From assembly GCA_013695505.1 (NCBI GenBank), contig JACDAH010000079.1, positions 1-12,385 of the forward strand: 12,385 nucleotides of DNA, read 5' to 3'. The DNA is from Chloroflexota bacterium. GTDB lineage: Bacteria; Chloroflexota; Limnocylindria; Limnocylindrales; CSP1-4. Shown piece after piece: positions 633-12,282 of this stretch. Numbering within the stretch: position 1 is the first letter of the stretch; each line of letters starts with the position of its first letter. Position numbers and translations under genes: made by a program. The notes under the pieces were generated by a model. It was not told the origin of the DNA. It saw only the letters and a program-made list of their open reading frames with translations, and ran no database searches.

Positions 633-1586
633 TCAGTGCCCCACGGGATCCCGCAGCAGGTCGCCGAGCAATGCGCCCGGCTCGAGCATCGGGCCCTCCA
701 GTCTGAGGCGCCGGAGGAGCCAGTCAAGCGCCTCGACGGTGACCGGTGCGAGCTGGCCCACCGGCTGGCGCACCGTGGGATGGGCAATCGCACCGCGGCG
801 CTGGTACACGAGCTTTCGGATCGCGAGACTGGCGAAGGGCTGGCTCTCGAATCGAATGAGCGTGGCGAACCGATCGAAGAGCAGGGCGGCTCCGTCCGCG
901 TCCCCGGCGAACCAGCGCCGGACGATTGCGACCAGGACCTCCGGGAATCCGAAGCCGGTCATGGTGCCGTCGGCGCCTGCGGCGAGCTCCTCCAGCAACA
1001 TCGCGCCACCAAGCCCGCCGAGGATCGACACGCCGGGCGCGAGCTCCCGAAGCTTGCGGACCTTTGGCGGCGACGGCTCATCCTCCAGCTTCACGATGCC
1101 GGCTCGCGGAGCCTCCTCGGCGAGCGCCGCCATGAACTCGGCGGTCATGAGAACGCCTGAGCTGGCGGGATGATCCTGCACGACGACCGGGATCGTGATC
1201 GCTTCGGTGACCGCGAGGTAGTGGCGGCGGAGGGCGGCGTCGGTCGGACGGGCGAGCGGTGGCGGGGCAAGCATCACGGAATGGGCGCCGGCGCGCTCGG
1301 CTTCGCGCGCGTAGGCGACGGCGCGGTCCGTCGAGGCGTGCGTCACGCCGACGCAGACCGGCATCCGGCCGGCCGTCGTACCAAGGATCCCGTCGATCAC
1401 GCGCGCACGCTCATCGTCGCCGATCTTCGCCGCCTCGCCGAGCACGGCGAGAATCGTCATCCCGGTCACACCGGTGGCGAGCACGAAATTCGCAAGCGTG
1501 GCGAGTGACCGCTCGTCGAGGGTTCCGTCGGGCAGGAACGGTGTCGGAACGATGTTCCAGACGCCGCCCGTCCGCTCGGCGGTCAT
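633..1586 (-). CDS. DapA/N-acetylneuraminate lyase superfamily protein (not a true DHDPS)
   Basis: A 317-residue TIM-barrel protein of usual family length. The N-terminal GVWNIVPTPF strand is typical, and K166 in GIVKLED is the Schiff-base lysine of class I aldolases. Two dihydrodipicolinate synthase signatures are altered. The GTTGE pyruvate-binding loop is AVLGE (47-51), and the YNxP motif carrying the catalytic tyrosine is QDHP (137-140). It therefore probably performs another aldol, retro-aldol or decarboxylation/dehydration reaction on a keto acid. Similar VLGEA/VQD variants occur among uncharacterised 'dihydrodipicolinate synthase family' proteins. The ATG at 1586 lies inside the last codons of the AroM-like gene (ATGA overlap), and the amidohydrolase follows 2 nt downstream, so all three are likely one transcript. 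A role on a product of ring opening is inference from this order. Confidence 0.9.
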   Translation of the reverse strand: MTAERTGGVWNIVPTPFLPDGTLDERSLATLANFVLATGVTGMTILAVLGEAAKIGDDERARVIDGILGTTAGRMPVCVGVTHASTDRAVAYAREAERAGAHSVMLAPPPLARPTDAALRRHYLAVTEAITIPVVVQDHPASSGVLMTAEFMAALAEEAPRAGIVKLEDEPSPPKVRKLRELAPGVSILGGLGGAMLLEELAAGADGTMTGFGFPEVLVAIVRRWFAGDADGAALLFDRFATLIRFESQPFASLAIRKLVYQRRGAIAHPTVRQPVGQLAPVTVEALDWLLRRLRLEGPMLEPGALLGDLLRDPVGH

Positions 1587-2269
1587 GCGCGATCCGCGAC
1601 GGGCGCTCGCACCCGGGCAAGGTCGGCCATGGCGAGGGCGCCATATCGCCCGAGGTCGAAGACCTGGGCATTGCCCCTCGATCCAAGGGCTTGCTCGAGG
1701 CGATCGATCAGGTCGGCCGGGTGGCCGACGAAGTCGAGGACGACGGCCTCATGCTGCTCGGCGGCCTCCACGACCTGGTCAAGACCGGCGGGTAGCGGCG
1801 TCGCGAGCACCACTGGATCGAAGCCGAGTGCCCGCCACTTCGCTTCGGAGGCCGGAACCTGGCCCGGCAAGGGCACCACGACGAGCATCGTCGCGACGCC
1901 ACGCTCGTGAAGGACGCGTGCCACGGCAACGGCGGGCCGGATCAGCGGCCGATCGCTGGCGAGGTCGTGGAACCCACCGGCGCACAGGAGGAGGAGCGCG
2001 TCGGCGCCCGCGGCCTCCGCGCGCCGGACGGCGGCCTGGAGGTGCGGTGCGATCCATGCCTCGTCGACGACGACCTGGCGCCCGTCGGCGAGGCGGGTCG
2101 ACAGGGGGTTCGCGGCGTCCGACCCGATCGGCGGGACCGTGGCGGGGTCGATGCCGTCGAGGGCGCCCACTTCCAGGATGCGCACGTCGTCGGGCAGCAC
2201 GGCCCTCAGTTCGGCGACCAGGTCCGGGCGACACGACTGACCGATCTCGAGCGCGGCGACAGTGGGCAT
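1583..2269 (-). CDS. AroM family protein (Asp/Glu/hydantoin racemase-like fold)
   Basis: A 228-residue protein recognisable as AroM family from its overall pattern: an N-terminal ALEIGQ strand, a central LLLLCAGGF strand ending in a cysteine (C96), a VVPLPGQ strand followed by KWRALGF, and a late VVLDFVGHP strand. The family is related to the aspartate/glutamate/hydantoin racemase superfamily. E. coli AroM has no firmly established function. Members usually show a cysteine in the late strand (LDC.G.); here that position is F180, leaving C96 and C13 as the only cysteines, so a two-cysteine racemase mechanism looks unlikely. It is the first gene of the operon and overlaps the lyase by 4 nt. No Shine-Dalgarno precedes the ATG; a TACCAT hexamer lies 8 nt upstream. 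Next to an amidohydrolase, a hydantoin-racemase-like or regulatory role is possible but unproven. Confidence 0.82.
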   Translation of the reverse strand: MPTVAALEIGQSCRPDLVAELRAVLPDDVRILEVGALDGIDPATVPPIGSDAANPLSTRLADGRQVVVDEAWIAPHLQAAVRRAEAAGADALLLLCAGGFHDLASDRPLIRPAVAVARVLHERGVATMLVVVPLPGQVPASEAKWRALGFDPVVLATPLPAGLDQVVEAAEQHEAVVLDFVGHPADLIDRLEQALGSRGNAQVFDLGRYGALAMADLARVRAPVADRA

Positions 2270-2277
2270 TGCCGCCG

Positions 2278-2283
2278 ATGGTA
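2278..2283 (-). promoter_or_regulatory. Candidate -10 element for the AroM-lyase-amidohydrolase operon
   Basis: TACCAT on the minus strand is followed by 8 nt and then the ATG at 2269. This fits a -10 box whose transcription start falls close to the start codon. No clear -35 is visible and no Shine-Dalgarno precedes the ATG. It is the least typical member of the window-wide hexamer-ATG pattern because it lacks the TAG core. Confidence 0.35.
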
Positions 2284-2341
2284 GAGGACGGCATCCGTCG
2301 ATGCTTCATCGACGTAACCATCTGGCGCGCCAACCGGTATC

Positions 2342-2347
2342 TAGGCT
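2342..2347 (+). promoter_or_regulatory. Candidate -10 element for the GGDEF gene
   Basis: TAGGCT, the same hexamer found upstream of the AbrB antitoxin, lies in the divergent intergenic region. Transcription would begin near 2354, giving leaders of about 26 nt to GTG 2380 or 89 nt to ATG 2443. No good -35 is visible, so the call is tentative. Confidence 0.3.
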
Positions 2348-2442
2348 CGAATGCAGGGAAAGGGACAACTGGCACACTCGTGAAAGTCCCCCTGCCCGGC
2401 ACAGGCGATGCGCGGAAGGGACGCGGACGGAACGTTGTCTCC

Positions 2443-4095
2443 ATGGGCACCCGCGATCCCGTCGATGCCATCCGCCGTTCCGTGACGGACGGCGCGGCGC
2501 GCTCTCCGGGCGGATCTGAAGAGACGCCCCTTCCGAAGCCCGAAGGCACGGCGCGGATCCGGAACCTCGACCCTGATGGTCCAAATGGGGGCCCGCTCGA
2601 GGAGCGCCAGCCGTCAGCCGGGCCCACCTCGCCGTTGATCCGCGTGGCAGCTCTGACGGCGCGCATTCTCGATGTCGAGATCTCCGTTCTCAATGTCGTT
2701 CCTCCCGGCGCTCAGAGCCCGTCGGCCACGATCCAGGTCGATCGGGACGGTGCGACCGTCGAGCGTCGTCTCGGTCCAGGAGTGCGGACCCTGGCCGAAG
2801 TGCCGCTCGTCAGCTCAAGGGGCGCCGCGTTCGGAGTGCTCGGCGTGCGCGATCGGGCGGCCCGCAGCCTCACCGCGGATGAGCTCCAGACTCTGGACGA
2901 CCTCGGCCGGATCGTCGCCGACGAGGTCGAGCTTCAGGAAGAGGTCCGACGCCAGCGAGCGGCGAACCGGGAACAGACGGAGCACGAGCTGCAGGGCGCG
3001 CAGGATGTCGCGACCGTGGCCGCCGCCGTGCGCTCGCTCTCGGGGCTCGAGGAGCCCGGACCCATTCGCCGCGCGATCTGCGACATCGCGCTGCAGCTGA
3101 CGGGCGCCGACTCCGCCTCGATCTTGAGCGTGGTCGGAGAGGACATGCGCCTCTTCCAATCGGCCAGCGCCGGTCTGACCTGGAATGTCCGCGACAGCCT
3201 GGTGAGCGACGAGACTTCGCCCGCGGCGACGGCCTACACGGGCGGCAAGACCGTGGTGCTGACGGCCGAGGAATCAGCCGGGAGCGTCGCCGTAGGCGAT
3301 CCCCGACCGCTGCCCCTGTTCACGCTGTGGCAGCCGTTCGCCGCCGGGGGTAGCTCGACGGCTGCGGTTCTGGCCCTGGCCTGGCGGGGCCCGCTGATCG
3401 TCGAGCCGCCGCGCCTCACGGACCTGACCGAGCTGATCGCGGCCGAGGCGACGACCGTGCTGGAGCGGGCGGATCTGCTCGTCCAACTCGCGGGACTGGC
3501 ACGGACCGATGAATTGACGGGCCTGCCCAACCGCCGGGCCATCGGCGAAGACCTCGCTCGCGAGATGGAGCGCGCCAAACGACAACAGACGCCGTTGTGC
3601 GTGGGCCTTCTGGATCTCGACCTGTTCAAGCGCTTCAACGACAGCCACGGCCACGCCGCGGGCGACGCTCTGCTGACGGAGGCGGCGACGGCGTGGCGGG
3701 AGTGCCTCCGCGCCGGAACCGACTCCCTGGGCCGGTATGGGGGCGAGGAGTTCCTGGTCGTGCTTCCGGCCCCGCCCGACGATGCCGTCGCGACGGTGGA
3801 GCGACTCCGGTCCCTCACACCGAGGGATCAGACGGCCTCGGTGGGGATCGCCAGCTGGGATGGCACGGAGTCTGCCATGAGCCTCGTCGCGAGGGCCGAT
3901 GTCGCTCTGTATACGGCCAAGGCCCGCGGCCGGGATCGGAGCGAGCTGGCGGCGACGCCGGCGGCTGAGCCACGACCCGAAGTTCGCCTCGTCGGTGTGT
4001 TCCAGCCCGAGCACCGGGCATCGCGCCGAGACTCGTCACCAAGCAGGGGCACGGTGCCGCCGGTCGACGATGCTCCGGATCGCGTCGGCAGATGA
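2443..4095 (+). CDS. Diguanylate cyclase with tandem GAF sensor domains (GAF-GAF-GGDEF)
   Basis: A 550-residue soluble protein. Residues 1-60 are low-complexity. A short GAF-like domain spans about 62-163, a charged helical linker about 158-188, a second GAF domain about 190-345 and the GGDEF domain about 352-502. The last begins with the classic DELTGLPNRR motif and includes the metal-binding LLDLDLFKRFND strand. The active site is GGEEF (433-437), intact for making c-di-GMP from two GTP. The inhibitory RxxD site five residues before it is degenerate: AGTD, with the arginine one position too early, so product inhibition may be weak. No membrane segment is seen, so the GAF domains presumably sense a cytoplasmic ligand. 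The start is uncertain: ATG 2443 was chosen, but GTG 2380 is in frame with a purine-rich stretch about 14 nt upstream. A cAMP cyclase gene follows 163 nt downstream on the same strand. Confidence 0.92.
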   Translation: MGTRDPVDAIRRSVTDGAARSPGGSEETPLPKPEGTARIRNLDPDGPNGGPLEERQPSAGPTSPLIRVAALTARILDVEISVLNVVPPGAQSPSATIQVDRDGATVERRLGPGVRTLAEVPLVSSRGAAFGVLGVRDRAARSLTADELQTLDDLGRIVADEVELQEEVRRQRAANREQTEHELQGAQDVATVAAAVRSLSGLEEPGPIRRAICDIALQLTGADSASILSVVGEDMRLFQSASAGLTWNVRDSLVSDETSPAATAYTGGKTVVLTAEESAGSVAVGDPRPLPLFTLWQPFAAGGSSTAAVLALAWRGPLIVEPPRLTDLTELIAAEATTVLERADLLVQLAGLARTDELTGLPNRRAIGEDLAREMERAKRQQTPLCVGLLDLDLFKRFNDSHGHAAGDALLTEAATAWRECLRAGTDSLGRYGGEEFLVVLPAPPDDAVATVERLRSLTPRDQTASVGIASWDGTESAMSLVARADVALYTAKARGRDRSELAATPAAEPRPEVRLVGVFQPEHRASRRDSSPSRGTVPPVDDAPDRVGR

Positions 4096-4162
4096 TCGGA
4101 TAGCGTTCGGCGCGGATGGCAAGCTACCGCAGCAGCGCCACATCGAAGGTCATGAGCTCCTG

Positions 4163-4180
4163 TTCCGCCTCGCGGCGGAA
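4163..4180 (+). other. Perfect hairpin between the GGDEF and adenylate cyclase genes
   Basis: TTCCGCC and GGCGGAA form a 7-bp perfect stem around a TCGC loop. It sits 67 nt after the GGDEF stop and 78 nt before the next start. It is followed by A residues rather than a T run, so it is not a classic intrinsic terminator on this strand. It may be a GC-rich terminator or an RNA-stabilising structure. Confidence 0.35.
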
Positions 4181-4258
4181 AAGGACTCCCGCAAGCGGAG
4201 CGCAGCGGGCTGAACGGCGCTTCTTGCGAGGGGCGGCTATTCAACCCACACTCAGCAG

Positions 4259-5617
4259 GTGATCCCTGACGCGGTCAACGCGGAGCCGCCGCGATACGCA
4301 CGCGCCGGCGACCTGCACATCGCCTACCGCGTCGTCGGCGACGGGCCGATCGATCTCGTTCTCGTTGACCAGTGGTTCAGCAATGTCGATGCGATGTGGG
4401 AGTTCCCGCCGCTCGCCCGCCTTCTGACGCAGCTCGCCTCGTTCAGCCGGCTGATCGTCTTCGACAAGCGCGGGACCGGCCTTTCGGATCCGATCGCAGT
4501 CGATGCGCTGCCGACGATCGAGGAATGGATCGACGACCTTCGGGCCGTGCTCGACGACGCGGGTTCGACGCGGACCGCACTGCTGTCGGGAATCGGCGCC
4601 TCGGTCATGTCCCTCATGTTCGCCGCGACGTATCCGGAACGGACGTCATCGCTCGTCCTCGTGGACGGCTGCGCTCGGTTGGCGTGGGCGGACGACTATC
4701 CGTCGGGTCAACCGGTCGGAGCCCTCGAGCGTCAACTCGAGTGGATCCGTGCCGGCTGGGGGAAGGACGGCGGGACCATGGCGTTTCTGGCCCCGAACCT
4801 CCTCCTGGAGCACCCCGTCGCGGAGCAGTACATCCGCTACGAGCGCCAGTCGGCGAGCCCGGGCATGGCGAAGGCAATGATCGGTTGGCTCTACGAGGTG
4901 GACGTGCGTCACGTGCTGCCGGCGATCAGCGTCCCGACGCTTCTCCTTCACCACGTCGAGGCCGACCGCATTGCTCCGATCCATGGCCGGTATATCGCAG
5001 AGCGCATTCAGGGCGCCCAATTCGTCGAGATTCCCGGACGTGAGAATTACACCTGGGCCGGCGACACAGCGCCGATGCTCGCCGAAATCCAGGAGTTCCT
5101 GACCGGCGAACGCCCGGTCGCCGAGCCTGATCGCGTGCTTGCGACCGTCCTGTTCACGGACATGGTGGATTCGACGAGGCGCGCCGCCGAGTTGGGCGAC
5201 GCGGGTTGGCGCAAGTTGTTGGCCGCTCACGATCAAGCCATCAGATCGATCCTGGAGCGGTTTCGCGGTCGGGAGATCAAGACCACCGGTGACGGGTTCC
5301 TGGCGACCTTCGATGGGCCGGCAAGGGCGATCCGGGCGACGATCGCGATTCGAGGAGTGCTTGCCGCCCAAGGCATCGCGGTTCGGTCGGGCCTCCACAC
5401 CGGCGAAGTCGAGATCGTCGGACGCGACATCGCGGGGATCGCCGTCCACATCGCGAGCCGGATCGGAGGGCTGGCACGCCCCGGCGAGGTTCTCGTTTCG
5501 AGTACGGTCAAGGACCTCGTCGCGGGCTCCGGGATCATCTTCGAGGCGCGCGGGGCACATGCCCTCAGAGGCATCGAGGAGGAATGGCGGCTGTTTGCGG
5601 CGTCGGAGCCGGCATAG
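4259..5617 (+). CDS. Alpha/beta-hydrolase-like domain fused to class III adenylate cyclase
   Basis: A 452-residue two-domain protein with the same architecture as Mycobacterium tuberculosis Rv1900c. Residues 12-282 form an alpha/beta-hydrolase fold, with typical strands including IVFDKRGTGLSDP and FAATYPERTSSLVLVD. The nucleophile elbow that should read GxSxG is SGIGAS (110-115), with I112 at the serine position. The usual histidine near the end of the domain is N263 in RENYTW; the acid D236 remains. This domain is therefore probably non-catalytic and sensory. Residues about 290-447 are the cyclase: metal-binding D301 (LFTDMVDST) and D345 (TGDGF), adenine-specifying K341 and D390, and transition-state R401. 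H397 stands where canonical enzymes have asparagine. The product should be cAMP. The GTG at 4259 is the only sensible start, since an in-frame TGA lies at 4211-4213; no Shine-Dalgarno is apparent. Confidence 0.92.
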   Translation: MIPDAVNAEPPRYARAGDLHIAYRVVGDGPIDLVLVDQWFSNVDAMWEFPPLARLLTQLASFSRLIVFDKRGTGLSDPIAVDALPTIEEWIDDLRAVLDDAGSTRTALLSGIGASVMSLMFAATYPERTSSLVLVDGCARLAWADDYPSGQPVGALERQLEWIRAGWGKDGGTMAFLAPNLLLEHPVAEQYIRYERQSASPGMAKAMIGWLYEVDVRHVLPAISVPTLLLHHVEADRIAPIHGRYIAERIQGAQFVEIPGRENYTWAGDTAPMLAEIQEFLTGERPVAEPDRVLATVLFTDMVDSTRRAAELGDAGWRKLLAAHDQAIRSILERFRGREIKTTGDGFLATFDGPARAIRATIAIRGVLAAQGIAVRSGLHTGEVEIVGRDIAGIAVHIASRIGGLARPGEVLVSSTVKDLVAGSGIIFEARGAHALRGIEEEWRLFAASEPA

Positions 5618-5632
5618 CGGTTAGGCCGCCGA

Positions 5633-5650
5633 ACGGCAGCTCGTTGCCGT
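5633..5650. terminator. Possible bidirectional terminator hairpin
   Basis: ACGGCA and TGCCGT form a 6-bp perfect inverted repeat with a 6-nt loop. It lies in the 57-nt gap between the convergent stop codons of the cyclase (5617) and the DUF72 gene (5675). The position suits a shared terminator, but no T run follows on either strand. Confidence 0.35.
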
Positions 5651-5674
5651 GACGGTGGCCCACGGCTCTTCCAG

Positions 5675-6472
5675 TTATTTCTCGGGATCCGGTTGCGATC
5701 GGCGCCGCGCCAGGATCGCCCGGAAGCGTCGAGCGTCCTCGACGCGGGGGATGTTGTTGAACAGCACGTACGCCGGCGAACCGGTCCTCGCGGGCAGTGT
5801 GTCCGCCAACAAGTCCAACTCGCTATCCGTGTAGACATGCCGCGCGCCGGTGGTGCCGTGGAGTCGCAGGTAGGTCCGCTCCGGGGTCACCGTGGTCGAG
5901 ACGAACGGGTCGACGACGTGGACTAGGTCGAGCTCGCGACAGAGCGTCGCGACCAGCTCTGGCGGCCACTGGCCGCGCGGCTCCCATAGCGTCCGCACGC
6001 CTCGGGGTCGCTCGACGGTTCCAAAGAATGCGCGCAGGCGACCGATATTGTCGTCGGTGGGCCGGAATGACGCCGGGCATTGGAGCAGAATGGCCGTGGC
6101 GCCGAGGATCGCGGCGCACTCGAGGGTCCGCTCCCAAGCGCGCAGGACGATCGCGGTCATGCGGAACCCGCCCGCTGCCGCGCGGTCGACGTCCGTCAGG
6201 GCCGAGCGGAGGCGCCGATAGGTCGGGCTCGACGCGTCGTGCGTGACGAGCTGCCATGCCTTGATCGTGAACTCGAAGTCGCTCGGCGCGAGCGCGCGCC
6301 AGCGACGCATCGTGGCCTCACGAGGCGGCTCGTAGAACGTCTGTTGGACCTCCACGAGCCGGTACTCGTGGACGTAGTCGTCGAACGCCATGCTGAAACC
6401 GCACAGCCCGACGCGGACCCCGTCGTCCCCGTCGCGCGCCAGGGCGCCGTCCGCGTCACGACGATCGCGCAT
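5675..6472 (-). CDS. DUF72 (YecE-like) domain protein
   Basis: A 265-residue protein with the DUF72 TIM-barrel signatures: GLCGFS near residue 22; a VEVQQTFYEPP strand (41-50) followed by a conserved tryptophan; FEFTIKAWQLVTH (66-78); LLQCPASF (129-136); WEPRGQW (163-169); YLRLHG (201-206); and YVLFNN near 235-240. The family is widespread in bacteria and archaea, but its biochemical role is not established. The first 18 residues are charged and not conserved, and no alternative start codon lies before the conserved core. The ATG at 6472 has no Shine-Dalgarno; TAGTCT ends 6 nt upstream of it, which suggests a leaderless transcript. It is convergent with the cyclase gene and probably monocistronic. 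Confidence 0.9.
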   Translation of the reverse strand: MRDRRDADGALARDGDDGVRVGLCGFSMAFDDYVHEYRLVEVQQTFYEPPREATMRRWRALAPSDFEFTIKAWQLVTHDASSPTYRRLRSALTDVDRAAAGGFRMTAIVLRAWERTLECAAILGATAILLQCPASFRPTDDNIGRLRAFFGTVERPRGVRTLWEPRGQWPPELVATLCRELDLVHVVDPFVSTTVTPERTYLRLHGTTGARHVYTDSELDLLADTLPARTGSPAYVLFNNIPRVEDARRFRAILARRRSQPDPEK

Positions 6473-6478
6473 TGCCCG

Positions 6479-6484
6479 AGACTA
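6479..6484 (-). promoter_or_regulatory. Candidate -10 element giving a leaderless DUF72 mRNA
   Basis: TAGTCT on the minus strand is followed by 6 nt and then the ATG at 6472. This is the same geometry seen upstream of several other genes here. No recognisable -35 lies 16-18 nt further upstream. Confidence 0.45.
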
Positions 6485-6589
6485 GCCGATTGCCCCGCGC
6501 GAAGCGGATCGACTCGGCGATCGCAAACCGGACGGCACTCGGTCCGCGAGGTCATTGAGTGGCGCCCCGACCGTCACCTGCATGGGGTG

Positions 6590-7156
6590 TCACCGCTTCG
6601 TGTAGACCTGCAATACGACCCCGGAACGAAAGGACGTGCAATCGGTCAACGTCAGCCCATGGGGCGTGAGGCCTTCGGGCATGAGGTTGCGGCCACGGCT
6701 GCTGAGGACCGGGTAGACGAACAGCCGGTACTCGTCAACGAGGTCGGCGCGGATGAGTGCGTGAACCACGCTGATGCTGCCGGTCACCCCGAGGTCACCG
6801 CCGTCCCCGTGGCCCTTCAGCGCGCCAACCTCGTCTTCGAGCCGACTTGAGAGCACCGTGCTGTTCGTCCAGGCGGGATCGGCCAGCGTGGACGAGACGA
6901 CGTACTTCGGCACTCGGTTGAGGTGCGCGGCGCTGCCTGAAGCGTCGTCGGTCTGGAGTGGCCAGTAGCCACGGAAGTCTTCGAAGGTCTTGCGACCGAG
7001 CAGCAGCGCTTCCTCGCGGGCCATCTGATCCTGCATCGCCGCGAAGAGATCGTCCGCGTCGTCCTGATCGGCAGGGTCGAACCAGTCGTCGATGAATTCG
7101 ATGATGCCGTTGGCCGTGATGTTCTCGGTGACGACGAGGCGACGAACGTGAGGCAT
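6590..7156 (-). CDS. Dihydrofolate reductase family / RibD C-terminal-like reductase
   Basis: A 188-residue protein of the DHFR-like fold found in the RibD C-terminal domain family. Residues 6-20 (RLVVTENITANG) form the first strand and loop. LLLGRKTFEDF (51-61) is the nucleotide-binding glycine/arginine segment, KYVVSSTL (84-91) a central strand, and LGVTGSISVVHALIRADLVDEYRL (122-145) the glycine-rich pyridine-nucleotide region and following helix. VYPVLSSRGRNLMP follows. Members bind NADPH, but most have no proven substrate; this is unlikely to be the housekeeping dihydrofolate reductase. The start ATG 7156 is supported by a GGAG motif about 8 nt upstream on the minus strand. The conserved core begins immediately, so the longer open frame upstream is not coding. 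It shares orientation with the VOC gene 305 nt away but has its own ribosome binding site. Confidence 0.9.
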   Translation of the reverse strand: MPHVRRLVVTENITANGIIEFIDDWFDPADQDDADDLFAAMQDQMAREEALLLGRKTFEDFRGYWPLQTDDASGSAAHLNRVPKYVVSSTLADPAWTNSTVLSSRLEDEVGALKGHGDGGDLGVTGSISVVHALIRADLVDEYRLFVYPVLSSRGRNLMPEGLTPHGLTLTDCTSFRSGVVLQVYTKR

Positions 7157-7461
7157 GGCGGGCACTCCAACTGGCGAGGGTTCCGTACAGCGTGAAGACG
7201 TTGGCCGGGGGTAGAAGTCATCGTCGGCGGTTCGTTCCGATGATTTCCGGGAGGATGGACCCCATAAGGCAATCGTCTCGTGCTGCTCGACGCGAGGAAC
7301 GGGACGTACGAGACGGACCCGGAAGGTCGGATCCTGGGGGTGACGCCGCCCGTGCGATGACCCGGCTCGTTGAGCTCGTGTCCGTCGCCTGCGAGCGAAC
7401 GGTTCTTGGTCAGGATCCGGAAGCCGCGGACGCCGCGGACGCCGCGGACGCGGGACCTCGC
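7157..7461. other. 305-nt stretch with no convincing gene
   Basis: This stretch lies between the reductase start and the VOC gene stop. Open frames here are arginine- and proline-rich products of GC-rich sequence and show no family motif. It contains the reductase ribosome binding site, presumably its promoter, and a short 9-nt tandem repeat. A 26-codon frame (7280-7360, plus) reads plausibly but matches nothing I recognise. Confidence 0.5.
7423..7449. repeat. Three tandem copies of a 9-nt unit
   Basis: GCCGCGGAC is repeated three times without interruption, followed by a partial GCGGAC-like copy. It lies just downstream of the VOC gene stop in non-coding sequence. It probably arose by replication slippage; no function is evident. 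Confidence 0.8.
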
Positions 7462-7944
7462 TCAGCCACCCGCGGCGGCGCGCTCGAGCTCCGCGATGTC
7501 GATCTTCCCCATCTGGAGCATCGCCTGCATGGCCCGCTCGGCGGCGGCCGGGTCGCCGGTGTCCTGGGTGAGCTCCATGAGCCGCCGCGGAATGATCTGC
7601 CACGACACGCCGAAGCGGTCCTTCAGCCAGCCGCACGGCCCGGGCTCGCCTCCGTCGGCCGTTAGCGCGTCCCAGTAACGGTCGACCTCGGCCTGATCGG
7701 CGCAGTCGACCATGAAGGAGATCGCCTCATTGAAGGCGAAGTCCGGGCCGCCGTTGAGTCCGACGAACTTTTCGCCGCGGAGCGTGAACTCCACCGTGAT
7801 CACGGTCCCCTTCTCGCCGCTGGGGGTGTCGCTGGCCGCTCCGTGGACGCCGTCGACCCGGCTGTCGGGGAAGATGGACGTCCAGAAGTTGGCCGCCTCC
7901 TCCGCCTGACCGTCGAACCAGAGGCAGGGTGTGATCGGTGACAT
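7462..7944 (-). CDS. VOC superfamily protein, PhnB-like (3-demethylubiquinone-9 3-methyltransferase domain family)
   Basis: A 160-residue protein with the PhnB-like signatures. It opens with ITPCLWFDGQAEEAANFW (4-21), followed by FPDSRV and a VITVEFTLRGEKFVGLNGG strand pair. Next come FAFNEAISFMVDC (69-81), the VDRYWDALTADGGEPGPCGWLKDRFGVSWQI region (87-117) and a C-terminal helical tail with repeated MQAMLQMGKIDI-type helices. The family adopts a beta-alpha-beta-beta-beta vicinal oxygen chelate fold. Despite the Pfam name, methyltransferase activity is not established for most members, and many are linked to resistance-like or unknown roles. The start is certain: a strong GGAGGAA Shine-Dalgarno (7955-7949) precedes the ATG at 7944, the best ribosome binding site in the window. 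It is transcribed divergently from the 85-residue gene at 8148. Confidence 0.93.
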   Translation of the reverse strand: MSPITPCLWFDGQAEEAANFWTSIFPDSRVDGVHGAASDTPSGEKGTVITVEFTLRGEKFVGLNGGPDFAFNEAISFMVDCADQAEVDRYWDALTADGGEPGPCGWLKDRFGVSWQIIPRRLMELTQDTGDPAAAERAMQAMLQMGKIDIAELERAAAGG

Positions 7945-7948
7945 GTCG

Positions 7949-7955
7949 TTCCTCC
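7949..7955 (-). promoter_or_regulatory. Strong Shine-Dalgarno of the VOC gene
   Basis: GGAGGAA on the minus strand, with GGAGG 6 nt before ATG 7944. It contrasts with the genes in this window that have no Shine-Dalgarno and appear leaderless, and it fixes this start. Confidence 0.8.
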
Positions 7956-8061
7956 GATGCGGACGATGCTCACATGGCAGCGCTCGATGTGCCTGTTAGA
8001 CGACACGGACACCGCCGATTCATCGGTCCACCTCGACACGCATCAACGCAGTCACCGTCCT

Positions 8062-8081
8062 CGACGACACGTCTGTCGTCG
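8062..8081. other. Perfect 8-bp inverted repeat in a divergent intergenic region
   Basis: CGACGACA and TGTCGTCG flank a CGTC loop. The element lies between the divergent VOC gene (start 7944) and the small gene at 8148, about 55 nt before the latter's -10 hexamer. It could be an operator for a dimeric regulator or an RNA hairpin. No T run follows, so a terminator is unlikely. Confidence 0.45.
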
Positions 8082-8135
8082 CTGCGGACCGGACTGCGCA
8101 GCGCTGGGCAGACCCCACGCACAGGCCATGCGCAT

Positions 8136-8141
8136 TAGAGT
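8136..8141 (+). promoter_or_regulatory. Candidate -10 element giving a leaderless mRNA for the small-protein/nucleotidyltransferase pair
   Basis: TAGAGT is followed by 6 nt and then ATG 8148. No Shine-Dalgarno fits in this gap, so the mRNA is probably leaderless. No clear -35 element is seen. Confidence 0.5.
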
Positions 8142-8147
8142 CTTGCC

Positions 8148-8405
8148 ATGCGGCGACCGCTGGACACTTCGATCGACGGGCGTGAACGGCAGCTCGAGCT
8201 GTATCGAGCGATGACCGCCGAGGATCGGGTCCGACTGGCCGACCAGATGAGCACCGAGGTTCGCGAACTGGCTCGGGCAGGCATCCGAGCGCGAATGCCC
8301 GACGGCGCCACGGTAGCCGAGGTGGAGGCGGAGCTCGTCCGGACTCTGGTGGGTCCAAACGCCGGCGCGGGCGCTCAGGCGCGCCGAGCCCCCGCGAGTC
8401 GGTGA
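8148..8405 (+). CDS. Small conserved hypothetical protein paired with a nucleotidyltransferase
   Basis: An 85-residue, largely helical and charged protein. Its core runs from the LDTS motif (5-8) through RQLELYRAMTAEDRVRLADQM (14-34), VRELARAGIRARMPDG (38-53) and a valine/glutamate-rich helix to residue 68; the last 15 residues are alanine/arginine-rich and probably disordered. I recognise this arrangement (an LDTS start, a 'YR.MT..D...LA' helix and an 'AGIRAR.P' motif) as that of short proteins commonly encoded just before nucleotidyltransferase genes in Chloroflexota and Actinomycetota. No biochemical function is known to me. The stop overlaps the next start (GTGA, 8402-8405), so the two are translationally coupled. 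The pairing resembles a toxin-antitoxin or MNT-type module, but that is inference. The start is fixed by a TAGAGT hexamer 6 nt upstream. Confidence 0.75.
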   Translation: MRRPLDTSIDGRERQLELYRAMTAEDRVRLADQMSTEVRELARAGIRARMPDGATVAEVEAELVRTLVGPNAGAGAQARRAPASR

Positions 8406-8948
8406 CGTTCGGCGAGCTTCTCGCGCTCGTCGTCGAACGGCTCGATCGAGCAGGGATCCCATTCATGGTCACGGGATCTCTGGCGAGCTCGTACCACGGT
8501 GAGCCACGCTCGACCCGCGACGTGGACATCGTCATCGACCCGGAGCCAGCCTCGCGGGATCAGTTCGTCGAGGACCTCGTCTCGGCGGGCTTCTACGTGG
8601 ACCGCGAGACAGCTCGGGAGGCGCTCGCGAACCGATCCCAGTTCGACGCGATCGGGCCGGCCGCGGCCAAGGTCGACTTCATCATCCGGCGCGAGCGTCC
8701 CTTCTCGCTCGAAGAGTTCGGGCGCCGCCAGCACGCGAAATCTTCTTGGCACGGCCGCGTTCGTGGTGACGCCGGAAGACCTCGTGATCGCCAAGCTGGA
8801 GTCGGCGGCGGCGTCGGGCTCCGACCGGCAGCTCGACGATGTCGCCGGCATCCTGGCGATCGCACGTCCGCTCGACGCCGCTTACATAGAACGGTGGGCA
8901 CGCGCCCTTGGTCTCGAAGACGCGTGGCGTCGCGTCCGGGAGAATTGA
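8402..8948 (+). pseudogene. Nucleotidyltransferase-fold protein interrupted by a frameshift
   Basis: The gene starts with GTG inside the stop of the preceding gene. Residues 23-46 carry the nucleotidyltransferase signature: TGSLASSYHG with G25/S26, then RSTRDVDIVID with D40 and D42. D92 in KVDFII completes the catalytic acidic triad. After residue 110 (FGRRQ) the frame loses family likeness. The expected C-terminus, LLGTAAFVVTPEDLVIAKLE and QLDDVAGILAI, continues in the +1 frame and ends in TGA at 8946-8948. The whole span is 547 nt, that is 182 codons plus one base, so a single extra base between about 8732 and 8742 (GCGAAATCTT region) explains it. Read without correction, the first frame stays open to 9064. 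This is either a real disabling mutation, a sequencing or assembly error, or a recoding site. The catalytic residues all precede the break. Confidence 0.85.
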
Positions 8949-8980
8949 CTTTCTCACGTTCCGCAACGCCAAAGACCGAG

Positions 8981-9048
8981 GCTGGCGCGATAGCACGTTT
9001 GCGGTTTAGGAGGCTCGTGGCCGCTCGTTCAGGCTCCTTTGCGCCAGC
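8981..9048. other. Inverted repeat in the convergent gap between the nucleotidyltransferase and PIN genes
   Basis: GCTGGCGC (8981-8988) and GCGCCAGC (9041-9048) are perfect 8-nt complements. Nested inside are AGGAG (9008-9012) and CTCCT (9034-9038). Both neighbouring genes end here, so a folded RNA acting as a shared terminator is plausible. There is no T run. No gene was found in the 139-nt gap. Confidence 0.35.
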
Positions 9049-9087
9049 GCCACTTCTTGCGTAATTTGTTCGTTACTGGCCGATCAG

Positions 9088-9531
9088 TCAGGTCGGCGGC
9101 CGTTCTCCGGTGGAATCCGGCAGGCCGAGGACGCCGATCCCTTCGATCAGCGCGGCCGCCGCCAATGGCCGGTCGGACGTCGCCAATGCCTCCCCGACGG
9201 CCGCGGCGGTCGCGAGCGCCATGCAGTCGGCCATCGACAGCGGACTGGACTTGCGATCGTAGTGGCGGGCGTGCAGTTCGCCCGCCGATATGCCGATCGC
9301 GCCATCCACGACCTGCACCTGGAGGCCGGCGGTCTCCAGCATCGCCAACGCGGTCATCGTTGCAGCCACGGAACGCCCGTAGATCCTGGTCATCACATCG
9401 AGGATCTCGGCCGCATTCACGGCGCTGACTCGCGCCGGTCGTGACGGGTCACGCAGCTCCGCCTCGACCTCCGCGGCGGCAGGCTCGTCGCGGAGAAACG
9501 CGATGAGGGCCTGAGCATCGAAGACGGTCAG
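9088..9531 (-). CDS. vapC: PIN-domain ribonuclease toxin (VapC-like), apparent CTG start
   Basis: A 147-residue PIN-domain protein. The four acidic residues expected at the Mg2+-binding RNase site are all present: D5 (TVFDAQAL), E42 (NAAEILD), D102 (LSMADCMAL) and D120 (TSDRPLA). The N-terminal strand TVFDAQALIAFLRDEPAA is essential to the fold, so the gene cannot start at the internal GTG near 9420. The only start-like codon before that strand is CTG at 9531-9529, which overlaps the antitoxin stop codon (CTGA). This is the common VapBC overlap geometry, but with CTG instead of ATG or GTG. VapC toxins cleave tRNA or rRNA when released from VapB; the specific target here is unknown. Expression should depend on coupled translation from the antitoxin gene. 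The rare start may keep toxin level low, or may reflect a mutated GTG. Confidence 0.85.
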   Translation of the reverse strand: MTVFDAQALIAFLRDEPAAAEVEAELRDPSRPARVSAVNAAEILDVMTRIYGRSVAATMTALAMLETAGLQVQVVDGAIGISAGELHARHYDRKSSPLSMADCMALATAAAVGEALATSDRPLAAAALIEGIGVLGLPDSTGERPPT

Positions 9532-9782
9532 CGGATCGCTCCGGAATCTCGCGCTGCCTCCTCGGCGCGCGTACGCGCGCGAGCTTCGTCCGAGGTGGTC
9601 GCGACCTCTGCCGCATTCGGCCTGAGGGAACCCCGGGCGGCGGCGATCGGATCGTCGGGCAGAGGTCGGACGATGACCTGATCGCCTCGGTCTTCGATCA
9701 TGATCCGATCGGTATTCCAGCGGTGCCGGACGTCGGCGGGGATCGACACCTGTCCGCCCCGTGAAATGCGTGCCTGCTTCAT
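9528..9782 (-). CDS. vapB: AbrB/SpoVT-type antitoxin (VapB-like)
   Basis: An 84-residue protein with an N-terminal AbrB-family swapped-hairpin DNA-binding domain: KQARISRGGQVSIPADVRHRW followed by the DRIMIEDRGDQVIVRPLPDDP strands (about 2-46). The C-terminal half (47-84) is alanine/arginine/glutamate-rich and would fold on the PIN toxin to inhibit it. It should bind its own promoter, alone or with the toxin, and repress the operon. Two in-frame ATGs exist (9788 and 9782). The second was chosen because the -10 hexamer at 9795-9790 would place the transcription start near 9783, and the core motif begins right after it. The stop overlaps the PIN gene start. VapBC modules act in stress response or element maintenance; no mobile element is visible nearby. 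Confidence 0.88.
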   Translation of the reverse strand: MKQARISRGGQVSIPADVRHRWNTDRIMIEDRGDQVIVRPLPDDPIAAARGSLRPNAAEVATTSDEARARTRAEEAARDSGAIR

Positions 9783-9784
9783 GT

Positions 9785-9824
9785 GCATGAGCCTAACTCA
9801 TGAGTGCAGCCTGTCAATCATGAG
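9785..9824. repeat. Three CATGAG repeats over the antitoxin promoter, candidate operator
   Basis: CATGAG occurs at 9785-9790, 9799-9804 and 9819-9824, the middle copy within the palindrome CTCATGAG (9797-9804). The first and third copies share the longer CATGAGCC. They overlap the -10, spacer and -35 regions of the antitoxin promoter, as expected of autoregulatory sites. Confidence 0.5.
9790..9817 (-). promoter_or_regulatory. Antitoxin-toxin operon promoter (TTGACA / TAGGCT)
   Basis: On the minus strand a perfect -35 TTGACA (9817-9812) and a -10 TAGGCT (9795-9790) are separated by 16 nt. The -10 ends 7 nt before ATG 9782, so the transcript would be leaderless. This is the clearest sigma-70-type promoter in the window. 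Confidence 0.7.
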
Positions 9825-9924
9825 CCAGCTCCAATCGCGCCCACCGCTCGGATCCGTGATGGAATCTCTCGGGTGGCTCGTGCGCGAGGACTTCGACCAG
9901 CCTATCCGACGCGCAGAGCGGCGT

Positions 9925-10872
9925 TCACTCCAGAAGGTAGCGACCAACCTCGTTGAGGAGCGGCTCGGCGGCTGCGAACCGGCGAATCTGTTCACCGGCG
10001 AGCTGGAACGAGCGGATCGTACTCGCCGGTGAGTCGCCGGCCATGTGCGGGCTGATCAGGACGTTGGGCAGCGCCCAGAGCGGATGCCCCAGCGGCAGCG
10101 GCTCCGGATCGGTGACATCGAGCGCGGCCCGAAGCCGGCCCGTCCGAAGCTCCGCGACCAGCGCGTCGGTGACGATCGTGGAGCCGCGCCCGCCGTTCAC
10201 CACGAGCGCGCCGTCCGGCAGACGGCTGAGCCGCCCAGCGTCCAGCAGGCCGCGGGTCTCGGTGGTCAGCGGCAGCATGTTCACGAGAATCTCGGCGGCG
10301 CAGAGGATCTCATCGAGATCGGCCAGACCGCGGACGCCGTCGCGGGCGGTGCGACCCACGCCGATGAGCTCTACGTCGAACGGGCGGAGCCGGTCTGCGA
10401 TCGCCGTCCCGATCGACCCGAGCCCGAGGATGACGACGCGCCGTCCGGACAGCTCGGGCGGCTCGATGGTTCCCCACTCGTGTCGCGTCTGCGCATCGCG
10501 GGACTGGACCAGGCCACGCTGCATTGCCAGGATGGCCCCAACCACCCACTCCGCGAGCGGCGTGTCGAAGACCCCTCGGGCGTTGCAGACCGTGACGTGC
10601 GCGGGCACTCGTCCGATGAGCCAGTCGACGCCGGCGCTCGTCGTCTGGATGACGCGCAGCCGCCCCGGTGGTCCGGCGAGCAGCTCGAACAGCGAGGGGC
10701 GGATGCGGGTCGACGGCACGATCAGCTCGACATCGGCAAGGTCCGGGACCTGCCCGGGCTCGGCCGGAACGAGTCGGACGTCGACGTTGGCCGGCAGATC
10801 GCCGATGTGGACCGACTCGGGGACGTCCGGCACACAGACGACAACGGTGTCGGGACGGGCTGGCTCGGTCAT
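9925..10872 (-). CDS. D-isomer-specific 2-hydroxyacid dehydrogenase
   Basis: A 315-residue enzyme of the usual family length that interconverts a 2-keto acid and a D-2-hydroxy acid with NAD(P)H. The catalytic domain contains TTSAGVDWL near 77-85. The Rossmann domain has GLGSIG (150-155). The catalytic triad is R229 (NGGRGS), E257 (DVTDPEPLP) and H276 (SPHMAGDS). The second Rossmann strand ends in GVGRTAR rather than an aspartate, which suggests NADPH preference as in glyoxylate/hydroxypyruvate reductases; cofactor choice is inference. ATG 10872 was chosen because GAGG lies 8 nt upstream; a GTG at 10881 overlaps that ribosome binding site. The substrate cannot be named from sequence. It is transcribed divergently from the cupredoxin gene. 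Confidence 0.93.
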   Translation of the reverse strand: MTEPARPDTVVVCVPDVPESVHIGDLPANVDVRLVPAEPGQVPDLADVELIVPSTRIRPSLFELLAGPPGRLRVIQTTSAGVDWLIGRVPAHVTVCNARGVFDTPLAEWVVGAILAMQRGLVQSRDAQTRHEWGTIEPPELSGRRVVILGLGSIGTAIADRLRPFDVELIGVGRTARDGVRGLADLDEILCAAEILVNMLPLTTETRGLLDAGRLSRLPDGALVVNGGRGSTIVTDALVAELRTGRLRAALDVTDPEPLPLGHPLWALPNVLISPHMAGDSPASTIRSFQLAGEQIRRFAAAEPLLNEVGRYLLE

Positions 10873-11000
10873 GTCTGGCACCTCGGCTCGAAGATACCGG
10901 GCGCGAGTGCCCGTCGGGTGGCAAGCCCGATCAACGCTCGGTCAAGGAGCCCCCGTCTGTGACCGACACCCTGCCGCACAGCGTGGGATCTCAGCAGGAC

Positions 11001-11006
11001 TAGGAT
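11001..11006 (+). promoter_or_regulatory. Candidate -10 element for the cupredoxin gene
   Basis: TAGGAT ends 7 nt before an in-frame ATG at 11014, matching the leaderless pattern seen elsewhere. Transcription from about 11013 would also serve the Shine-Dalgarno-led ATG at 11071. No -35 is evident. Confidence 0.4.
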
Positions 11007-11070
11007 GGTCGTCATGGGCGGCGACTACTCCGTCCCCGCGGATGGCCCTCGGCCGCCAGGGAGACGAAAG

Positions 11071-11613
11071 ATGACGCCCGTAACCACCCACCGGGAACAT
11101 GCGTTCGCCTCGCTGCCTGCGCTGGCACTCAGCGCCGCGCTCGTGATGCTCGGCGCGTGTTCGGCCGCGACGCTGCCGAGTTCGAGCGTCTCGGCCGCGC
11201 CATCATCGGTGCGGGTCGACATGGCTCTCTCGCCCGGACCATCGACGTTGGCCTCGGCGTCGCCGGCAACCCGACCCACCATCGCCGTTGTCAGGGTGAC
11301 GCCGATCCCGAACGCGCCCGACAGCAACAAGGTCGTCAAACTGATCGCGGCCCACGTGCGGTGGGTCCCCAACACGCTCGCGGCCCCGGGCGGCGAGGTC
11401 TGGCACGTCCAGATCGACAATCAGGACGGGCCACCGGAGCATCACAACTTCGTCGTTGCATCCGGAACGACCTTTCCGGAACGGATCTATCAGAGTGCGA
11501 ATTTCAACCAGGGGACCTTCACCTTCGACATCCCCGCGCTTCCGGCCGGCAACTACCGTTTCATCTGCACGGTCCACCCTGAGGTCATGACCGGGCCTCT
11601 CGAGCTCCGCTGA
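11071..11613 (+). CDS. Secreted cupredoxin lipoprotein (plastocyanin/halocyanin-like)
   Basis: A 180-residue exported blue-copper-type protein. Residues 1-29 are a lipoprotein signal peptide with a hydrophobic LPALALSAALVM segment and the lipobox LGAC; C30 should be lipidated. A serine/alanine/proline-rich linker spans about 31-70. The cupredoxin domain (about 85-180) has the first copper histidine in EHHNFVV (H125, or less likely H124). The C-terminal loop CTVHPEVM supplies C166, H169 and M173, the full type 1 copper set (H, C, H, M). It probably carries electrons on the outer face of the membrane; the partner is unknown. ATG 11071 is preceded by AGGGAGA about 7 nt away and gives a normal signal peptide. 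An upstream in-frame ATG at 11014 would add 19 residues and fits a leaderless start. No respiratory genes are adjacent. Confidence 0.9.
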   Translation: MTPVTTHREHAFASLPALALSAALVMLGACSAATLPSSSVSAAPSSVRVDMALSPGPSTLASASPATRPTIAVVRVTPIPNAPDSNKVVKLIAAHVRWVPNTLAAPGGEVWHVQIDNQDGPPEHHNFVVASGTTFPERIYQSANFNQGTFTFDIPALPAGNYRFICTVHPEVMTGPLELR

Positions 11614-11717
11614 CGCGGGTCGGCATTTCCTCCAGCGGACGCACCCTGGGGCGCCGTGCGAGCGACCGACGGCTGAGACCACATGGCTCGAACATGACTG
11701 GAACCTCGGCTCGGCGA

Positions 11718-12269
11718 TCAGCCGGGGATTGCGGCCGGGTCACCCCGACGGAGGAGGATGCCGAGGTAGGCCTTCCAAGGGCCGACGGCGTCGTCGTAGG
11801 AGCCCGCCATGGCCGCGAAGATCTGCGAGACGTGGTCCAGGTCGTGCACGGCCCATGTGGCGAGCAGCTCGCGGAGCGTCACCTCGCCGAGGCCGGGATG
11901 GAGGCCTCGCCGGTCGAGATCCGCCTCATCGGTCACGAGCGCCTCGAGACGCAGGAGGGTCTGTCCCCGCAGCTCCGCGAAGCGAGCCACGAGCCGATCC
12001 AGCGGCACGTCGACGTCGCGCTCGACGTGGGCGAACCGATCGAACGCATCGAACGGCTTCGACACCCCGTCTTCGAGGATGCGCTCCGCCCGCGGGATCC
12101 AGTCGTCGACCTCGGCCGAGATCAGGTGGCCCACGACGTCCCGGGGCCGCCATCCGTCGGCGACATCCGGGGTGTCGGTCCAGGTATCGGGAATGCCTGC
12201 CAGCAGCGCCGACACGACGGTCGGGGTGCGACGGAGGACGTCGACGGTGTCGGCGAGAAAGGCGGACAT
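11718..12269 (-). CDS. DinB-fold / mycothiol-dependent maleylpyruvate isomerase-like protein
   Basis: A 183-residue four-helix-bundle protein of the DinB superfamily. The metal-binding histidines are visible as H48 in VVGHLISAEVDDW and the H142-x3-H146 pair in AVHDLDHVSQI, the usual three-histidine site. The helix LFDRF-type spacing and the RLEALV / LTLRELLATWAVHDLDH arrangement are typical, and the length fits. Family members are often thiol-dependent transferases (mycothiol or bacillithiol) or of unknown role; nothing here indicates the substrate. A GTG (12272) directly precedes the ATG (12269). The ATG was chosen because TAGTAT ends 7 nt upstream of it and no Shine-Dalgarno is present. It is convergent with the cupredoxin gene across a 104-nt gap. 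The 113 nt to the right edge contain no gene I can support. Confidence 0.88.
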   Translation of the reverse strand: MSAFLADTVDVLRRTPTVVSALLAGIPDTWTDTPDVADGWRPRDVVGHLISAEVDDWIPRAERILEDGVSKPFDAFDRFAHVERDVDVPLDRLVARFAELRGQTLLRLEALVTDEADLDRRGLHPGLGEVTLRELLATWAVHDLDHVSQIFAAMAGSYDDAVGPWKAYLGILLRRGDPAAIPG

Positions 12270-12276
12270 CACCGTG

Positions 12277-12282
12277 ATACTA
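12277..12282 (-). promoter_or_regulatory. Candidate -10 element giving a leaderless DinB-family mRNA
   Basis: TAGTAT on the minus strand is followed by 7 nt and then ATG 12269. The spacing equals that of the antitoxin promoter. No convincing -35 is present. Confidence 0.5.

Follow-up and report, generated by a model that had tools for sequence, protein, structure and literature searches.

The hexamers that lie 6-8 nt before six start codons of the window, i.e. of the whole 12,385-nt stretch of Chloroflexota DNA analysed here, are in all probability (about 0.92) TANNNT -10 boxes of promoters used by the housekeeping sigma factor, with transcripts that start at or beside the start codon and are leaderless. 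In such a mechanism, the ordinary housekeeping sigma factor would read the TANNNT boxes, and their spacing would put the transcription start at the first base of the start codon or next to it. Messages starting there would therefore be leaderless, and ribosomes would take them up without a Shine-Dalgarno (SD) sequence. What was observed is the motif itself, where it lies, its retention in two orthologs of a single relative, and a canonical main RpoD in relatives; from these we infer the transcription start at the ATG, the recognition by sigma and the leaderless translation. The boxes and the genes of the window are:

1583..2269, minus strand: AroM gene (PF07302; found by the gene finder), predicted to be leaderless
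2278..2283, minus strand: putative -10 box TACCAT, 8 nt 5' of the AroM ATG (2267-2269); sequence reading
5675..6472, minus strand: DUF72 gene (PF01904; found by the gene finder), predicted to be leaderless
6479..6484, minus strand: putative -10 box TAGTCT, 6 nt 5' of the DUF72 ATG (6470-6472); sequence reading and exact pattern search
8136..8141, plus strand: putative -10 box TAGAGT, 6 nt 5' of the ATG (8148) of the 85-residue gene; sequence reading and exact pattern search
8148..8405, plus strand: 85-residue gene, predicted to be leaderless; not picked up by the gene finder
9528..9788, minus strand: AbrB-type antitoxin gene (86 aa); open reading frame, not picked up by the gene finder
9790..9795, minus strand: putative -10 box TAGGCT, 7 nt 5' of the AbrB-type ATG at 9780-9782; sequence reading and exact pattern search
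9812..9817, minus strand: TTGACA, a perfect -35 box 16 nt 5' of TAGGCT; sequence reading
11001..11006, plus strand: putative -10 box TAGGAT, 7 nt 5' of the upstream cupredoxin ATG (11014); sequence reading and exact pattern search
11718..12269, minus strand: DinB_2-family gene (PF12867; found by the gene finder), predicted to be leaderless
12277..12282, minus strand: putative -10 box TAGTAT, 7 nt 5' of the DinB-family ATG (12267-12269); sequence reading and exact pattern search

A preliminary description of this DNA had drawn attention to five TAGNNT hexamers that precede an ATG by 6-7 nt. They are real: they were read on the sequence and relisted by the exact pattern search. The SD sequences that this description had assigned to the VOC/3-dmu-9 (GGAGGA), reductase (GGAG) and dehydrogenase (GAGG) genes are visible by eye. 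At a threshold of 0.001, neither the 85-residue gene nor the AbrB-type gene had a Pfam match; the name AbrB stems from that description and from inspection. A search of 24 relatives gave no match to the 85-residue gene; a single 44%-identical piece occurs at another place of its own genome. In the AbrB-type gene, the spacing of 7 nt refers to the second ATG, and the first in-frame ATG (9786-9788) lies 1 nt past the box. The pattern TAGNNTN{6,8}ATG has 84 places in the genome, five of them inside the window versus 0.41 expected by length (Poisson probability 7e-5, uncorrected for the window having been picked). The chance of about 1% per gene given previously is valid for equal base use (3/256), but drops to about 0.3% at the upstream composition of the organism's family, f1 (A 0.158, T 0.143, G 0.336).

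The proposal to count the hexamer upstream of all starts of the genome was followed on stretches, and a peak 6-8 nt before the starts was seen. For these counts, start codons were called blind to the motif, and a gene was taken as a first gene if no same-strand neighbour lay close upstream. In the own genome, TANNNT occurred at this distance in 22 of 142 first genes (1.6 expected); after removal of the window and of two purposely chosen contigs, 17 of 118 were boxed. A genus-mate gave 14/97 (1.2 expected) and a further family member 39/396 (5.1 expected). When the window and three more contigs that had been picked on purpose were left out, family f1 still reached 70/597 (7.7 expected). Three further sets of the class gave 14/78 (1.0 expected), 12/64 (0.6) and, for family f2, 6/47 (1.2). 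Among 9,920 combinations of pattern and spacing, TA...T at 6 nt ranked first (z 21.3). Equal enrichment at neighbouring offsets was not seen; offsets 0-5 and 12-20 were near background. A whole-genome count, which does not depend on gene calling, found 216 sites at 6-7 nt versus 55 at 12-13 nt in the own genome.

Within family f1, 75 of 635 first genes carried a box, versus 8 of 350 close same-strand genes (1/70, 3/46 and 4/234 in the three genomes). Family f2 is contrary to this restriction, as 8/63 close same-strand genes were boxed versus 6/47 first genes. Confinement of the hexamer to genes lacking an SD sequence had been named as further support. This was observed in f1 (SD in 0/75 boxed versus 187/560 other first genes), but the exclusion is largely forced, because the hexamer fills the SD position.

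Start codons came from a home-made gene finder, which hit the annotated start in 36 of 46 Thermus genes and in 27 of 39 E. coli genes; in the window, two genes with a box escaped it, and its start for the cupredoxin gene lies even further downstream than the candidates considered below. A first pass over all genes at 6-8 nt gave 15/134, 15/143 and 17/285; it used fewer stretches and milder start-codon weights, which were later altered, as GTG starts seemed too many. As the calling of starts was blind and not free of errors, the boxed share, roughly 9-18% of first genes in this class of Chloroflexota, is probably too low.

In Thermus, the positive control, 13 of 60 first genes were boxed (0.9 expected) with the same peak, and close genes were boxed as well (8/83). 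E. coli, the negative control, showed no peak (1/55; 4.3 expected). Samples of other lineages were drawn from 52 of 80 named loci. The boxed counts were 1/55 in Dehalococcoidia (2.3 expected), 1/86 in Lachnospiraceae/Clostridia (4.3 expected) and 4/115 in the Paenibacillus group (6.3 expected). The Actinomycetota sample, in which six of nine loci were from Coriobacteriia, lacked the peak (2/58; 1.6 expected), against the published expectation. In small samples from named near relatives, the count was 1/32 (0.1 expected).

Orthologs were compared as well. In one relative, the DinB ortholog has TAGGAT, 7 nt and ATG; the DUF72 ortholog, whose N-terminus differs, starts with GTG and has TAGGAT 6 nt ahead of it. 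Thus, as judged from the sequences, box and start of DUF72 have shifted together. In two more distant homologues, one of DUF72 (68% identical) and one of DinB (64% identical), the box is absent. The leaderless-promoter reading, already put forward in the preliminary description, is supported by the peak at 6-8 nt, by three f1 genomes and another three sets from the class, by both controls and by the two orthologs, and leaderless transcription appears to be the best reading of the position of the box.

It is very improbable that the boxes are promoters of genes with leaders, in which translation begins at SD-led codons further downstream and the ATG that adjoins the box goes unused. The cupredoxin gene gives this idea its example: the upstream ATG does have TAGGAT at 7 nt, as had been described, but it has a rival in a second in-frame ATG at 11071, 19 codons (57 nt) downstream, which follows the SD-like GGGAG and by inspection suits the lipoprotein signal peptide of this gene better. 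However, the peak at 6-8 nt is sharp and also appears in the whole-genome counts anchored exactly at ATG. Together with the joint shift of box and start in DUF72, this points to selection on the distance between box and start.

A further proposal of the preliminary description was a TAG core specific to this lineage, for which the main sigma factor would have an altered -10 specificity. We regard this as highly improbable, although five of the six boxes of the window begin with TAG. In f1, TAG accounted for 28 of 75 boxes (37%) versus a background G frequency of 0.336 (34%; p 0.54); genome-wide, the own genome had 69 of 216 (p 0.67), and TANNNT at other offsets had TAG in 74 of 204 cases. The other families of the class are somewhat richer in TAG (15/32, p 0.19), and the f2 genomes point the opposite way (10/14 boxes, a small set). 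A distinct TAG core was consequently rejected for f1 as a general rule, the third base being at background, and the run of TAG in the window looks like a local coincidence. The third base would be free, and TAG would be a frequent guise of TANNNT in G+C-rich DNA. AroM, previously listed as a looser case, is a full member, because TAC (30/75) is as frequent as TAG in f1.

The main sigma factor of relatives agrees with TANNNT as the element recognized. All 12 main RpoD proteins of f1 examined contain WWIRQAITR...PVHMVETIN, with canonical regions 2.4 and 3.0, and have T at the position of E. coli T440. A second sigma factor of f1 has Q at this position, which could favour a deviating specificity. 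The incomplete assembly of the own genome did not yield its main RpoD. In relatives, the main RpoD has the usual residues that read the -10 element. Taken as a whole, the findings make a special TAG-reading sigma factor unnecessary.

Further features of the boxes were inspected in f1. A -35 element (four or more matching bases of the six in TTGACA, at 15-19 nt) was not enriched, being found in 12/75 boxed versus 67/560 control genes; the AbrB-type gene is the exception within the window. G occurred two bases 5' of the box in 50 of 75 cases versus a base composition of 0.336. An extended -10 as a rule was reduced to a weak preference, given that TANNNT at other offsets has this G in 92 of 184 cases. 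Most boxes would thus act without a -35, and the somewhat common G would resemble that of weak extended -10 promoters. A ban on A at the third position (0/75) was dropped, as A is also scarce at other offsets (8/204). Two other candidates were discarded. Bidirectional promoters sharing one TA were sought in the 18 of 184 divergent pairs with gaps of -30 to 60 bp; two symmetric boxes were found, one of which (23-bp gap) is centred between the starts. A CA...A signal 12 nt before the starts of 20 genes belonged, by eye, mostly to SD-containing genes.

An artefact, in which TAG serves an overlapping upstream gene as stop codon or the hexamer results from the composition near starts, is next to negligible: TAG is indeed a stop codon and f2 has boxed close same-strand genes, but such genes are rarely boxed in f1, TAC is as frequent as TAG, and the other offsets are near background.

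The box of these putative leaderless promoters has been published before: it is the TANNNT -10 element of leaderless genes in Actinobacteria and Deinococcus-Thermus, where it occurs without a -35. According to the available text of Zhong et al. 2025 (PMC12340547), the Deinococcus -10-motif is a TANNNT that precedes the ORF by about 6-7 bp, in most cases without a -35, and its promoter action was proved by reporters; in Deinococcus-Thermus, it and GGAG are the two main upstream motifs. TANNNT, the spacing of about 6-7 bp and the scarce -35 are common to both systems. Their motif concerns about 30% of ORFs and is backed by reporters and transcript data, whereas ours concerns the smaller share of first genes given above and is known from sequence. 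The word Chloroflex is absent from the available text of that study. TA-led leaderless genes of high-GC bacteria were described by Zheng et al. 2011 (PMC3160421), the available text of which lists 4 of 12 Chloroflexi genomes with 4.0-5.7% of genes and the pattern TAtaaT; in contrast, the class studied here has the high-GC form TAnnnT. In Mycobacterium, leaderless genes make up about a quarter of the genes with a primary TSS (Cell Rep. 2013, PMC3898074, as far as its available text goes). TANNNT, the free internal NNN and the lack of a conserved -35 are shared with our case; the phylum is another one, and 5' ends were mapped there. Leaderless expression as such is already known; here it emerges clearly from the sequences of a little-studied group of Chloroflexota.

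In eight genomes drawn from the class, the whole-genome ratio of sites at 6-7 nt to those at 12-13 nt was 2.2-7.1; outside the class, it was 0.99-1.75 in 51 of 53 genomes and 2.6-2.7 in two genomes of family f7. Several of the outside ratios were significantly above 1, with an absolute excess of up to 304, which for some genomes is as large as in the class. Tentatively, and at somewhat less than even odds, a leaderless pathway relying on the -10 box could be a major mode of expression throughout the class, and this pathway would have arisen or been retained separately from the other Chloroflexota classes. If real, it would parallel Deinococcus-Thermus, and leaderless initiation would become a comparative test case within one phylum. 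By sequence statistics, this poorly studied soil lineage of Chloroflexota appears to use leaderless genes at a scale approaching the published figures for Actinobacteria. With that many leaderless genes, gene finders that expect an SD sequence may therefore misplace many starts in this lineage.

Sequence reading and a pattern search confirmed at their places the five TAGNNT hexamers of the window and the TACCAT box of the AroM gene, which the preliminary description had read as -10 elements of leaderless promoters. In the genome of the organism itself (G000; an assembly of 2,535,247 bases in 549 contigs, 61% complete), the pattern TAGNNTN{6,8}ATG was found at 84 places on both strands. Because five of these lie within the window, where 0.41 are expected by length, the window is an unusually dense spot for TAGNNT boxes. 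The following was also observed for single genes of the window:

8402-9064, + strand: nucleotidyltransferase-like gene downstream of the 85-residue gene; the N-terminal part is read in one frame and the C-terminal part in another, and the gene appears to be frameshifted near 8740.
9420-9540, - strand: PIN-toxin-like partner of the AbrB-type gene; the coding sequence reaches back to the antitoxin end, no ATG, GTG or TTG occurs in this frame before 9420, and the gene seems to use a rarer start codon, one that overlaps the stop of the antitoxin.
9780-9830, - strand: promoter of the AbrB-type gene, in which, by eye, a 16-nt spacer separates a perfect TTGACA from TAGGCT; the CTCATGA/TCATGAG words repeated around it are likely a self-operator.
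11001-11073, + strand: cupredoxin gene start, with an in-frame ATG at 11014 beside a -10 box and another at 11071, 19 codons apart, after the Shine-Dalgarno-like GGGAG; by inspection, ATG 11071 is the better match to the lipoprotein signal peptide.

For the positional analysis, genes were called in 60 stretches from the own genome, which came to 264,980 usable bases once N and pieces below 1,000 bases had been removed. A genus-mate (G001) supplied another 20 stretches, a further member of family f1 (G007) 40, and four further genomes of the class 20. To choose a start, the script weighs codon usage and the type of start codon alone and ignores the upstream sequence; before counting, genes were left out if no start had been called for them or if less than 90 bases of sequence lay upstream. 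Compared with the annotation, it recovered 45 of 46 genes in Thermus and 37 of 39 in E. coli, with the start exactly right in 36 and 27 of these, respectively; among the genes of the window, the 85-residue gene and the AbrB gene escaped it, and it placed the cupredoxin start elsewhere. First genes, i.e. those without a same-strand neighbour within 40 bases upstream, were counted separately from close genes, which have one. The enrichment anticipated by the preliminary description was found in these samples, as TANNNT peaks 6-8 nt before the starts of first genes.

Genes with TANNNT 6-8 nt before the start (set: first genes; expected from other offsets; close genes)
Own genome: 22/142; 1.6; 1/70
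Genus-mate G001: 14/97; 1.2; 3/46
Family member G007: 39/396; 5.1; 4/234
Class genome G044: 14/78; 1.0; 1/42
Class genome G041: 12/64; 0.6; 1/50
Small-genome sister family f2 (L241-L246): 6/47; 1.2; 8/63
Thermus plasmid pTT27, positive control: 13/60; 0.9; 8/83
E. coli K-12, negative control, no peak: 1/55; 4.3; -

Family f2, where boxes are as frequent in close as in first genes, is the exception to the first-gene rule. The own-genome sample takes in the window (3/10) and two more contigs picked for a reason; without these three, 17 of 118 first genes have the box (1.5 expected), and family f1 without all four picked contigs gives 70 of 597 (7.7 expected). Among 9,920 pattern-by-spacing combinations, TA...T at 6 nt ranks first (39 vs 2.6, z 21.3); the top 4-mers were GCTA at 10 nt, overlapping the same box, and Shine-Dalgarno words. 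Start codons following boxes at 5-10 nt in all six sets were ATG (117), GTG (30) and TTG (1). A G stands two bases upstream of the box in 50 of 75 cases, compared with 92 of 184 for TANNNT at other offsets, and no -35 enrichment was seen (12/75 boxed genes vs 67/560 others). At locus L227 (1441-1465), a divergent gene pair with a 23 bp gap has a single TA common to both -10 boxes (+ strand: AGGGTAGCCT). This may be a leaderless promoter working in both directions; of the 18 close divergent pairs inspected, no other was a centred case of this kind.

Without gene calling, TANNNT was counted exactly over whole genomes at 6-7 nt ahead of every ATG, and these counts were compared with those at 12-13 nt, which have the same reading-frame phases. 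The own genome has 216 and 55 sites, respectively; the ratio is 2.2-7.1 across the eight class genomes drawn, 0.99-1.75 in 51 of 53 other Chloroflexota genomes, and 2.6-2.7 in the remaining two, both of family f7. A restriction to the class is not established, because several ratios within 1.2-1.75 outside it are significant, the absolute excess there reaches 304, and the ratio is diluted wherever composition makes TANNNT common.

In a relative (G002), TAGGAT precedes the ATG of the DinB ortholog (87% identical) by 7 nt, within otherwise changed upstream sequence. The DUF72 ortholog of G002 (about 80%) has TAGGAT 6 nt before a GTG whose N-terminal position differs; as the TAG of this box is an in-frame stop, no usable start lies upstream of it. 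No box was seen for the DUF72 homologue of G006 (68%), nor any TANNNT 6-8 nt before the in-frame ATG two codons ahead of the aligned stretch in the DinB homologue of G010 (64%); the 85-residue gene had no match among 24 relatives. At a contig end of the own genome (L207, contig C163, 3410-3620), the DinB promoter with its box and the first 66 codons recur at 95% protein identity, as a strain variant or a duplicate.

The proposed lineage-specific TAG core was not borne out: the third base of 75 f1 boxes is C in 30, G in 28, T in 17 and A in none (G against a background of 0.336, p 0.54). TAG makes up 69 of the 216 own-genome boxes (p 0.67), the 69 being the 84 places minus 15 with spacing 8, counted by eye, and 15 of 32 boxes in other families (p 0.19). 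In f2, 10 of 14 boxes are TAG, which would favour such a core there, in a small and unadjusted set. An altered main sigma factor found no support either, as regions 2.4 and 3.0 are ordinary in the main RpoD of 12 of 12 f1 relatives, although the search pattern itself demanded WW-I/V-R-Q/K-A and so left no freedom to vary except at the T440 place. Locus L096, given to the same search, did not match the pattern, and the main RpoD of the own genome was not found in its 61%-complete assembly, presumably because this is incomplete. The family has a second sigma-70 factor, encoded in the own genome (L002, 1492-3051, - strand) and in two relatives (L093, L094); in its -10-reading helix, Q stands at the place of T440 of E. 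coli sigma70.

Thus, the boxes are real and their reading as leaderless promoters is supported by the sequence comparisons, whereas a TAG-reading sigma factor is not. No account of leaderless genes in this class was found among the literature matches listed; in PMC5397173, the Chloroflexi are represented by two species only. TANNNT adjoining the start codon is established as a leaderless promoter (PMC3160421, PMC3898074, PMC12340547). TANNNT-led leaderless genes are an already known kind, to which the present class adds a further case.
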